Shown here: positions 7,568 to 29,520 of the stretch, one piece after another
How the letters are laid out: every line of letters begins with the position of its first letter
Numbering within the stretch: the first letter of the stretch is position 1
Assembly: GCA_016938615.1 (NCBI GenBank)
Contig: JAFGUH010000109.1
Coordinates: 1-37,342, forward strand
Length of the DNA: 37,342 nucleotides
Direction of reading: 5' to 3'
DNA from: Halothiobacillaceae bacterium
Lineage (GTDB): Bacteria; Pseudomonadota; Gammaproteobacteria; Halothiobacillales; Halothiobacillaceae
The notes under the pieces: model-generated
What the model was told of the DNA's origin: nothing
Seen by the model: the letters and a program-made list of their open reading frames with translations, nothing else
Database searches by the model: none
Made by a program: the position numbers and the translations under genes

Positions 7568-8116
7568 ATGAGCGACGAGTCACGCATCGCCCCCGAAGAT
7601 CGCGCCCTCTTTCTCGATGCCGTCGGCCCGGTCGACCCGGTCGAGGACGAGCGGGTAGAGCCCGTGCGTCCCCGGCCCAGTGCCCGCCCTCGCCGCGAGC
7701 CTGGCTTCGACCAACTGGTGGACGAGGTCGCCTTCAGCGACCTGGCCGAGGCCCCGGAACAGGGGGAGCAGGTTCAGTACCTCCGCCCAGGCGTGCAGAA
7801 AACGATCCTGCGGAAGCTCAAACGCGGCGGCTATAGCGTCTCGGCCTCACTCGACCTTCACGGCCTGACCGTCGATCAAACCCGCCACGAGGTAGGCGCT
7901 TTCCTACGCAGCGAACGCGGCGAGCTGCGCCGTTGCGTGCGTATCGTCCACGGCAAGGGCTATCGGTCGACGGACGCCCAGCCGGTGTTGAAATCCCTGC
8001 TCAACCGCTGGTTGCCTCAGCGCGACGACGTGGTCGCCTTCTGTTCGGCGCCACCGCACGACGGAGGCACCGGTGCACTCTACGTCCTTCTACGCCGACT
8101 GAAGCCGGGTGACTGA
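7568..8116 (+). CDS. smrA: Smr-domain protein (SmrA/YdaL-like)
   Basis: 182-residue protein with a charged, proline-containing N-terminus and a C-terminal Smr domain (about residues 90-180). The two Smr signatures are present: SLDLHGLTVDQTR and IVHGKGYRS. The end (VVAFCSAPPHDGGTGALYVLLRR) resembles E. coli SmrA more than the ribosome-rescue nuclease SmrB. Smr domains are generally endonucleases or nicking enzymes; the exact substrate is uncertain. The ATG at 7568 gives the expected length. It is convergent with the next gene with only 8 bp between the stop codons. Confidence 0.85.
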   Translation: MSDESRIAPEDRALFLDAVGPVDPVEDERVEPVRPRPSARPRREPGFDQLVDEVAFSDLAEAPEQGEQVQYLRPGVQKTILRKLKRGGYSVSASLDLHGLTVDQTRHEVGAFLRSERGELRRCVRIVHGKGYRSTDAQPVLKSLLNRWLPQRDDVVAFCSAPPHDGGTGALYVLLRRLKPGD

Positions 8117-8124
8117 CGCCCCGT

Positions 8125-8625
8125 TCAACCGCCTGGGGAACGCGAGCGGTCCAGCGCGAACGGCAATCGAACCAGGTACGCCCCCTGGGTGGAATGAATA
8201 CTCAGATTCGCCATCCAGTCGGTCCGGTCCGAGGTGCAGCCCGGCAGGATTATGTCGGCGCGGTACGTCCCGTCCGCCAGCCGTTCGAGCCGGTAGGCAT
8301 TGTTGCCCATGTCCATGCCCACCATCTCGAAATCCACCCGAACTGCGCCGACCGACTCACCCGCCTTGCCTTGCGGCACGACGACGAGCCGGGTTTTCTC
8401 GAGCGGAACGACCGGATCGGGCAGGGTGACACGAAAATCGCCCAGCCCGTTGATCGCGACCGTGCAGCCCTCGCCCTTCAAATGACAATCCGCCGGAGCC
8501 TCGACCTGGGTCAACGCCCCGGTCATCGGCACATCGGTGGACAGCTTGCCTGGCGCCCGTCCCCACAGGTAGGTCAACGCGCCCAGGATCAGCATCGTCG
8601 CGACCAGCCATTTCGCCTGTTTCAT
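8125..8625 (-). CDS. Small membrane-anchored or exported protein of unknown function
   Basis: About 166 residues. An N-terminal hydrophobic segment (LVATMLILGALTYLWG) should anchor it in the membrane or direct export. The rest looks like a single beta-rich periplasmic domain, with a CHLKGEGC motif and a second region VGMDMGNNAYRLERLADGTYRADI. That region recalls FixH/YtkA-like or copper-handling periplasmic domains, but I cannot assign a family. An ATG at 8631 is also in frame; 8625 has the better spacing from AGAAGG. It is the last gene of the secA-side cluster, about 25 bp after the MutT-ThiE gene. Confidence 0.7.
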   Translation of the reverse strand: MKQAKWLVATMLILGALTYLWGRAPGKLSTDVPMTGALTQVEAPADCHLKGEGCTVAINGLGDFRVTLPDPVVPLEKTRLVVVPQGKAGESVGAVRVDFEMVGMDMGNNAYRLERLADGTYRADIILPGCTSDRTDWMANLSIHSTQGAYLVRLPFALDRSRSPGG

Positions 8626-15719: not shown

Positions 15720-15915
15720 CCTCTGCCACCGCGGCCTGACGAGCCGCTAGTGATCAAGGGGCGTCGTTGCCAGCAAGCCGTCAGGCGGGTCTTGATGGCA
15801 ACACCCCAGGGACACGGGCGGGTCGCCAGCCCCGCGGGCCTGCCCGTCCGCGCCCGTTTGGATGGCGTCCAGGTGACCTGGTGTCCGTGGCACTCCAACG
15901 CCGGTACGGAGGGTC
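15720..15915 (+). mobile_element. Palindromic intergenic element, degenerate copy D
   Basis: Diverged relative of the element at 27839-28106, same orientation. The stretch GACGAGCCGCTAGTGATCAAGGGGCGTCGTTGCC (described here by position, 15738-15771) aligns with 27874-27907 of copy C. The segment GGTCGCCAGCCCCGCGGGC (15821-15839) aligns with the far side of hairpin 1. Stems GTTGCCA / TGGCAAC and CCAGGT / ACCTGG (15869-15881) remain. The outer arms are badly eroded and no flanking duplication is visible. It fills the spacer between the convergent dciA and response-regulator genes. Confidence 0.45.
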
Positions 15916-16635: not shown

Positions 16636-16728
16636 AGAACCTCAGCACGAATGCCAAGCCGCTGGAGCGCGCCTTGATCACGAACGACTCGCTCAGCCCG
16701 AGTGGCAAGGCATTCGTGCTGAGGCTAC
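16636..16728 (-). mobile_element. Palindromic intergenic element, short copy B
   Basis: A 93-bp element. Its ends contain a perfect 16-bp inverted repeat CCTCAGCACGAATGCC / GGCATTCGTGCTGAGG (16640-16655 with 16709-16724). It is flanked on both sides by CTAG (16632-16635 and 16729-16732), consistent with a 4-bp target duplication. Inside it carries GCGAGTCGTTCGTGATCAAG (minus strand), identical to part of copy C. The body matches copy C with its middle missing. The right CTAG contains the TAG stop of lpxC, so the insertion left the protein intact. Confidence 0.7.
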
Positions 16729-27745: not shown

Positions 27746-27838
27746 GGGCATCTCCAGTGATGACCGCCGGGGAGCCCGACGGAGATGGGTATTCGATTTC
27801 GAATGGCGCCGGCCGCGTCGAGCGGGCGGACGCGCAAG

Positions 27839-28106
27839 GGAAACTCTGCACGAATGCCATGCCACTGAAGGCTTGGCGAGTCGTTCGTGATCAAGGCGCG
27901 TCGTCGCCGGCGTGCCGGTGCCCACGTCAAGACGACGCAACGCGGAGCACGGACGACTCGCCAGGCCCCGCAGGGCGCGCCTTGAGCCGGGCACCTGCCG
28001 CGTTGTCGTCCTTGGAAAGAGAATAACTCTTCCGCGGCGGACGAGCGCCTTGCATCTGCCCGGCTCAAGACGCGCTTCAGCGGTATGGCATTCATGCAGA
28101 GTTTCC
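27839..28106 (+). mobile_element. Palindromic intergenic element, complete copy C
   Basis: A 268-bp non-coding element whose 32-bp ends are inverted repeats (27839-27870 with 28075-28106, 29 of 32 matched). Inside are two long hairpins: 27870-27892 with 27945-27967 (20 of 23) and 27975-27993 with 28057-28075 (18 of 19). The fold is thus a closing helix bearing two arms. CAAG directly flanks both ends (27835-27838 and 28107-28110), consistent with a 4-bp target duplication. It carries no open frame of note. It splits hflX from hflK, which are usually adjacent. Confidence 0.75.
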
Positions 28107-28167
28107 CAAGGCAGCGCCAGAGTGTAGTGCCCGGCGCCCGACGAGGCAACCGCACGGTCGCGGCGAG

Positions 28168-29520
28168 TCAGTGGTGGTCGCCGCGCTCGGCCAGTACCCG
28201 CTGGAACGGTTCCGGCGTAGCGCCGGCGGGCGGATCGAGAACCATGTCACCCAGCGCCGGCTCCTTCTTCAGCAGTTGCCCCCACCGCGCGACGGGCAGG
28301 ACGACCTCGATGTCCCAGCCGCGTTCGTCGACCGCCTCGTCGACCACGCCGCCCTCGCCTTGCAGCAAGGCATACAAGCGACCGTCAGCCATGGGGATGA
28401 ACAGGTGTCGGGTCACGGTGCTCGGCTCGACCCGCTCGCCGAGGGCATCGCGCAGCGCGTCGAGCCCGCGCCCCGTCTTTGCGGAGACCCAGACGCGGGA
28501 TGGCGCACCGGACGCGTCACGGTCGACCCGCACCACGCCATCCTCGATCCGGTCGATCTTGTTCATCACGGTCAGCATGGGCAACTTGCCTGCGCCGATC
28601 TCCTCGAGCACCGCCTCGACGTCCTCGATCTGCCGGTCGCGCTCGGGCGAGGCGGCGTCGACAACGTGCAGCAGCAGGTCGGCCTCCAGCGTCTCCTCGA
28701 GGGTGGAGTGGAACGCCGAGACCAGCTCGTGCGGCAGATGCCGAATGAAACCGACCGTGTCGGCGAACACCACCGTCAGTTGCGGCGTCATCTCGACACG
28801 CCGGAGGGTGGTGTCGAGCGTGGCGAACAGCTGGTCGGCGGCGAAGGCCTCGGCCACGGTCAGCGCATTGAACAGGGTCGACTTGCCGGCATTGGTGTAG
28901 CCGACCAGGGCCACGGTCGGCACGTCGGACTGCTGGCGCCCCTTGCGGCCCTCGGCCCGCTGCCGGCGCACGCGGGCGATGCGTTCCTTGAGCTGCTTGA
29001 TACGACCGCCGAGCAGGCGGCGGTCCATCTCGAGCTGGGTCTCGCCCGGTCCGCGCAGGCCGATCGAGCCGCCACGCTGGCGTTCGAGGTGCGTCCAGCC
29101 GCGTACCAGGCGGGTGGCCAGGTGATTGAGCTGCGCGAGCTCCACCTGGAGCTTGCCCTCGTGGGAACGGGCGCGCTGGGCGAAGATGTCGAGTATCAGG
29201 CCGGTCCGGTCAAGCACCCGGCACTTGAGCAGCGCCTCGAGGTTGCGCTCCTGGGAGGGCGAGAGCTGCGCGTTGACCATGACCAGTTCCGCCTCGTGCG
29301 CGGCGACCATCTCGGCGAGTTCTTCGGCCTTGCCCTTGCCGATGAAGAGCCGCGGGTCGGGCGTCTGGCGATTGACCGCGCTTTCGGCAAGCACCTCGGC
29401 CCCGGCCGAATGCGCCAGCTCGCGGAACTCGAACAAGTCCTCGTTGGAATCCACGGCGCGCCGCTCGACATGCAGCAGCACCGCCCGTTCACCGCCCTGA
29501 TGGCGTTCGAAGAACTCCAT
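28168..29520 (-). CDS. hflX: GTPase HflX
   Basis: 450-residue ribosome-associated GTPase that splits stalled or heat-damaged 70S ribosomes. The N-terminal HflX domain ends in a basic coiled-coil with GPGETQLEMDRRLL. The G domain follows: G1 GYTNAGKSTLFN, G3 DTVGFI and G4 NKID. A C-terminal region after about residue 370 completes the protein. It starts 5 bp after hfq. The normal link to hflK is interrupted by repeat copy C. Confidence 0.96.
   Translation of the reverse strand: MEFFERHQGGERAVLLHVERRAVDSNEDLFEFRELAHSAGAEVLAESAVNRQTPDPRLFIGKGKAEELAEMVAAHEAELVMVNAQLSPSQERNLEALLKCRVLDRTGLILDIFAQRARSHEGKLQVELAQLNHLATRLVRGWTHLERQRGGSIGLRGPGETQLEMDRRLLGGRIKQLKERIARVRRQRAEGRKGRQQSDVPTVALVGYTNAGKSTLFNALTVAEAFAADQLFATLDTTLRRVEMTPQLTVVFADTVGFIRHLPHELVSAFHSTLEETLEADLLLHVVDAASPERDRQIEDVEAVLEEIGAGKLPMLTVMNKIDRIEDGVVRVDRDASGAPSRVWVSAKTGRGLDALRDALGERVEPSTVTRHLFIPMADGRLYALLQGEGGVVDEAVDERGWDIEVVLPVARWGQLLKKEPALGDMVLDPPAGATPEPFQRVLAERGDHH

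Follow-up and report, generated by a model that had tools for sequence, protein, structure and literature searches.

Evidence for a non-autonomous, MITE-type element of Guyparkeria with IS5-type ends and a conserved two-hairpin interior

Results and discussion

The 268-bp fold-back element at positions 27839–28106 of the window (the whole stretch of 37,342 nucleotides that was analysed) is, with a probability of roughly 0.8, a non-autonomous MITE-type element of Guyparkeria, which has IS5-type ends, would be moved by a transposase supplied in trans, and carries a conserved cassette that would fold as a single strand. Its mobility and its MITE-type nature are as good as shown. The element is short and non-coding, and it has terminal inverted repeats, a target-site duplication, dispersed copies and empty sites in related genomes. 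The interior is common to elements with different ends, and its structural constraint reaches far beyond this locus.

Architecture of the element

The element is flanked on both sides by CAAG (27835–27838 and 28107–28110), an exact duplicate which the initial annotation had pointed out and which the sequence bears out. The outer arms, 27839–27870 on the plus strand and 28075–28106 on the minus strand, represent the terminal inverted repeats and pair over 32–33 bp with 91% complementarity; the first 17 bp of the left arm, GGAAACTCTGCACGAAT, form an IS5-type end. Enclosed by this outer stem are two further inverted repeats: hairpin 1 (27870–27967), with its sense on the plus strand, and hairpin 2 (27975–28075), an inverted relative of hairpin 1 with its sense on the minus strand. 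They are separated by a small central hairpin, CCCCGCAGGG (27966–27975), which has equivalents in other families, for example CCCTTCGGG. Hairpin 1 contains a conserved internal loop with CAAGGCGC on its 5′ side (27892–27899) and CAACGC on its 3′ side (27938–27943), both of which are placed by alignment to the covariance model R1 and correspond to conserved columns among 42 further hairpins (see below).

Folding of the element as single-stranded DNA yielded −105.1 kcal/mol in comparison with −63.5 ± 4.1 kcal/mol for shuffled sequences (z = −10.25), and none of 200 shuffles equalled this value. Together with the inverted repeats, this confirms the palindromic organization proposed earlier, with ends pairing over 32 bp and two inner hairpins. 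Inspection of the open reading frames revealed neither a credible gene nor a transposase ORF within the 268 bp. At only 268 bp, the element lacks what defines an autonomous IS5 element, a transposase gene between the ends.

Insertion between hflX and hflK

The element occupies the gap between hflX, whose stop codon is at 28168, and hflK, which starts at about 27730; both genes are on the minus strand and were named from their translations. The hflX gene is present in all 11 Guyparkeria genomes, and in the other 10 the gap between hflX and hflK is without the element. Orthologous loci carrying the same sequence with no empty sites, the outcome which the initial annotation had set against its own reading, were thus found in none of 10 relatives. 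In the two closest ones (G005 and G006), the sequence is uninterrupted, with one CAAG where the source genome has CAAG–element–CAAG. Synteny across 29–38 kb in six relatives agrees with an insertion at this position. The reverse case also occurs: for a 177-bp B-type element of another Guyparkeria genome (G010, L079:8355–8531), the syntenic site is empty in the window, near 8116–8158.

The first step of the mechanism that we propose is well supported: the ends of about 17 bp are recognized by a DDE transposase, with duplication of a 4-bp YTAR-type target upon insertion, here CAAG. In this way the element came to lie between hflX and hflK in a single species.

The location within an operon might also be expected of a regulatory or structural element that is kept by the host and is not mobile, such as an operon processing or termination signal at hflX–hflK, and a related cassette on a Pseudomonas aeruginosa plasmid likewise lies between two co-directional genes. 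Against such a signal stand the empty site in 10 of 10 relatives, the target duplications and the copies scattered genome-wide. It is very improbable as an explanation of the element and is refuted as an alternative to mobility; at most, insertions may have such an effect secondarily.

Target choice

A perfect 4-bp duplication was present in 29 of 99 elements resembling families A, B and C (family A being that of the 268-bp element), as opposed to 0–2 of 99 when the test was shifted by 1–6 bp. The base counts at the flanks of these 99 elements are C/T, T, A and G/A, and so agree with the YTAR preference suggested previously. When the two sides of each insertion site were joined, none of the 99 sites attained the median coding score of the window genes and 11 reached its 5th percentile; the intergenic set used for calibration was made imperfect by gaps in the gene list. 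Judged from these low scores, the insertions are essentially intergenic.

The duplications also bear on a different mode of transposition. A Y1 (RAYT) transposase mobilizes elements of the REP/REPIN type in the form of single-stranded DNA. Like REPINs and BIMEs, the element forms an inverted pair of imperfect hairpins with internal mismatches and has a high intergenic copy number. Unlike them, it has clear terminal inverted repeats, 4-bp target duplications and a conserved internal loop in the middle of the stem, and transposition of single-stranded DNA by Y1 enzymes does not produce target duplications. We regard a REPIN-type origin as scarcely credible.

IS5-type ends and the putative partner transposase

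Full IS5-family elements on plasmids of beta- and gammaproteobacteria have nearly identical 17-bp ends and YTAR duplications. The autonomous element on pADP-1 has the end GGAATCTCTGCACGAAT and the duplication TTAG; further elements were found in Acidovorax DW039 (CTAA), Comamonas, Cupriavidus (CTAG) and Methylibium (TTAA), and a Comamonas IS5 transposase fragment bears the same ends (PF01609, E = 2.5e-28). In the elements of pADP-1, Acidovorax DW039 and the Comamonas aquatica plasmids, the ends match those of the 268-bp element over most or all of the 17 bp, with YTAR duplications. These insertion sequences differ from it in being 1.2 kb long with a transposase gene, and R1 detected the hairpin cassette in none of the IS5 loci tested. 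The same ends with CTAG or other YTAR flanks also occur on unrelated small elements from Acidovorax, Thiomicrorhabdus, Nitrosomonas, Binataceae and one Gemmatimonadetes genome; the simple MITEs of this kind in Binataceae and Gemmatimonadetes are without the cassette.

The Guyparkeria genomes searched, two of them consisting of a single contig, yielded no IS5 transposase. PF01609 was not found in the source genome, PF05598 was found only as a fragment in one other genome (G004), and a search for matching proteins of the genus gave no hit. A full insertion sequence with the same ends, for which the initial annotation had proposed to look, therefore exists on plasmids of other bacteria and was not found in the Guyparkeria genomes searched. 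Since none was found in this genus, we only infer the partner transposase. The ends, the target and the precedent of MITEPsy1 argue strongly for mobilization by an IS5-group enzyme, which would act in trans and whose gene does not have to reside in the source genome. The earlier interpretation as a MITE-like element of the IS5 group gains support from the copies, the empty sites, the YTAR duplications and the IS5-type ends.

MITEPsy1 of Pseudomonas syringae is an IS5-like MITE with CTAG/YTAA insertion which was trapped transposing (PMC3189936). Like the element described here, it is gene-less; it has the 18-bp IS5-like end GGAAGGTCTGAAAAAGCC and a 4-bp CTAG/YTAA duplication, and with 100 bp it is shorter than the 268-bp element.

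Several candidate partners were rejected. The ends of an IS4-type transposase element in one genome (G002) are GAATGGCGCTAAGTTAAGC, and similar ends are absent from the PF05598 fragment of G004. The resident IS5 elements of sister genera are not exact partners, as their ends differ (GGAAGGTCTGATCAAT, GGAACCTCTGATTGAAT). When viral contigs were scanned for the end pattern, 29 isolated matches resulted, which look like chance and have no partner ends. Among the IS5-type elements of the sister genera, those at L249:1401–2611 (GGAAGGTCTGATCAAT, TTAA) and L257:1132–1363 (GGAACCTCTGATTGAATC) have related yet different ends.

Copies in the window, the source genome and the genus

Two relatives of the element within the window, noticed already in the initial annotation, are real: a C-type copy at 1–209, whose left part is cut by the contig start and which is followed by TTAA at its right end, and a short copy of 93 bp at 16636–16728, with CTAG on both sides. 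The third one, placed at 15720–15915, turned out to be no more than a degenerate remnant of hairpin 1 (15724–15844, about 73%) without recognizable ends. The source genome, a 2.4-Mb draft in 267 contigs, contains about 20 near-full copies with 79–100% identity as well as about 30 partial ones, so that the lack of other copies, also considered beforehand as an argument against mobility, did not materialize. The copy number is probably underestimated, because the repeat is likely to break the assembly, as contig ends at copies indicate; contigs C34, C265, C45, C100 and C212 begin or finish inside or beside a copy. The closest copies within this genome are only about 95% identical and hence do not point to bursts in the very recent past.

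The family is present in nine of the 10 other Guyparkeria genomes, the exception being a genome that is 64% complete, and was not found by BLAST in 16 genomes of sister genera. Family B (...CGATRG..., about 266 bp) and family C have the first 15–17 bp in common with family A. Family B also occurs in a genome belonging to another GTDB family (G172).

Some copies deviate in their architecture. Solo-end derivatives of 42–59 bp consist of barely more than the two ends (L125:1501–1559, L141:1501–1555, L239:1017–1058), and two of them are flanked by perfect 4-bp duplications (TTAC for L141, TTAG for L239). The copy L022:1501–1767 (contig C158 of the source genome) has hairpin 2 inverted with respect to its remainder, with a match of about 92–93% on the opposite strand, which suggests an exchange between hairpin arms. 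Four longer forms of 332–338 bp (L024, L027, L102, L140) have an additional stretch in their interior that resembles a hairpin, so the number of hairpins varies in a modular fashion.

Conservation of the interior

Families A, B and C differ in about one-third of their letters yet keep the fold, with 95.9% of the cells pairing. Compensatory changes were found in 40 of 83 pairs, the covariation being 0.352 as compared with 0.138 for shuffled and at most 0.08 for slid alignments. The CAAGGCG/CAACGC internal loop is fixed in both opposite-facing hairpins while the stems covary: its letters are mispaired and almost invariant across families, whereas the stems change completely.

The same hairpin core was obtained upon folding of elements that look unrelated, from Acidovorax (161 bp, one hairpin), Nitrosomonas europaea (270 bp) and Thiomicrorhabdus chilensis (282 bp, two hairpins). 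It can be written as S1-AAGGC-S2-GYM-S3-loop-S3′-RA-S2′-AAC-GCR-S1′. Among four genera whose elements show no BLAST similarity, AAGGC and AAC are at equal distances from the element end. The covariance model R1 was trained on families B and C together with the Acidovorax, Nitrosomonas and Thiomicrorhabdus elements, and is limited to one class of hairpins, with a stem 2 of 7 bp, because this stem is either 7 or 8 bp long; covariation in its training alignment is 0.484 versus 0.177. R1, which was trained without them, detects the two large hairpins of the 268-bp element on opposite strands: hairpin 2 at 28063–27988 on the minus strand (55.6 bits, E = 4e-13) and hairpin 1 at 27881–27955 on the plus strand (36.1 bits, E = 1e-7). 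Viral control contigs (246,542 bases) gave zero matches up to E = 10. In 42 hairpins from 25 loci outside the training set, 24 of 26 pairs covary (0.700 versus 0.184, at most 0.11 when slid), a set which was found and aligned by R1 and is therefore biased towards its structure, alignment A1 (based on BLAST and ends) being the cleaner pairing test. AGGCG and CAAC are nearly invariant in these 42 hairpins. A T–C mismatch in stem 3 (AATGGCC...CCCTT; columns 37/58 of alignment A4) is kept in about half of the hairpins.

Covariation combined with invariant, mispaired loop letters shows the interior to be a constrained structure, and it is not visibly derived from IS5. Another reading would be an ordinary IS5-derived MITE with a functionless palindromic interior, in which mutation alone keeps the pairing, the template being switched from one arm to the other during replication. 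The correction of quasi-palindromes, a well-established mutational process, would yield covariation without selection; arm exchange does occur, as in the copy with the inverted hairpin 2, and the solo-end derivatives show that the interior is dispensable for the survival of a copy. However, template correction would erase mismatches, and the loop letters are mispaired yet almost invariant; moreover, in the four genera the loop recurs equally far from the element end. We consider a functionless interior unlikely. The initial annotation, well founded in its MITE and IS5 reading, had missed this interior structure, which is shared far beyond the element.

Strand polarity and possible role of the cassette

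On the CAAGGCG strand of hairpin 1, G–T pairs outnumber A–C pairs by 146 to 13, or by 39 to 13 without three wobble-majority pairs. For hairpin 2 the counts on its own strand are 29 and 14, with one invariant internal-loop column pair set aside, and for the outer stem 53 and 17, or 19 and 17 without two frequent-wobble pairs; these exclusions were picked after the counts had been seen, only one strand was used for predicting the structure, and the sequences are not independent of each other, being related. The modest G–T excess would fit a single strand of defined polarity and is suggestive only.

The interior cassette consists of two opposite-facing hairpins with fixed CAAGGCG/CAACGC loops, lies beneath an outer stem pairing the ends, and would fold strand-specifically, as RNA or single-stranded DNA. 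It may have been kept for this folding with a definite polarity, in which case two facing copies would ensure that each strand has a hairpin in the right orientation. The cassette might either aid movement of the element or render its insertion harmless to the host. The odds are about even that the hairpin cassette is itself a mobile module, which resides in MITEs of Pseudomonadota whose terminal sequences are of at least six different kinds and is selected for the action of its predicted single-stranded fold (binding of a host or transposase factor, or transcript protection) rather than being a leftover of an insertion sequence.

Relation to known elements

In the usual description, MITEs are IS elements with an internal deletion, and nothing but their ends is of importance. 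In the present case, the interior is clearly constrained in its structure and is common to elements with different ends in about one-third of the sampled gammaproteobacterial genomes. If this interpretation is true, it offers a concrete, testable reason for the wide spread of some gene-less elements, and a ready model with which many unannotated intergenic repeats could be annotated. QMITE, Chunjie and other bacterial MITEs are likewise small, non-coding and foldable with inverted ends; the searched passages of a review on them make no mention of a covariation-supported interior shared by MITEs with different ends (PMC10969869). No family of Rfam 15 matches the element or its relatives, the gathering-level matches being confined to t44 and tRNA in flanking DNA. 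A description of the cassette or of its end and loop sequences was not found in the open literature searched, subscription literature and ISfinder lying outside the scope. Provisionally, we regard the cassette as new, with no record in Rfam 15 or the open literature searched.

Distribution of the cassette and its different ends

R1 matches were found in 121 of 369 gammaproteobacterial genomes, representing 94 of 271 genera (E ≤ 1e-3 per genome), and in the positive genomes frequently all 13 candidates scored gave a match. Among genomes drawn phylum-wide, 97 of 398 contained matches (E ≤ 1e-4). The E-values are rough, yet scores of 60–88 bits recur. The matched elements that were examined are palindromic and about 155–285 bp long.

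The elements carrying the cassette have at least six kinds of terminal sequence. The first is GGAAxCTCTG-like with YTAR as target, the second and third are (CTA)GTACTCTTTCAAGG and (CTA)GTGTCCCTTAAC, both with TA, and the fourth is GAACGTGTTKACGATCTC with TTA/TAA. The fifth is CTAGGGYCTGTTGACGTTTCG, whose carriers include Azotobacter chroococcum, Halomonas sp. PA16-9 and the Pseudomonas aeruginosa plasmid, which has no annotation for it, and the sixth is CTAGGAGCCTGTCGGACTTAA. Some of these kinds may belong together as subgroups within a single transposase family. In family f207, which is outside the class, many genomes contain the hairpin core; the cassette is not confined to Gammaproteobacteria.
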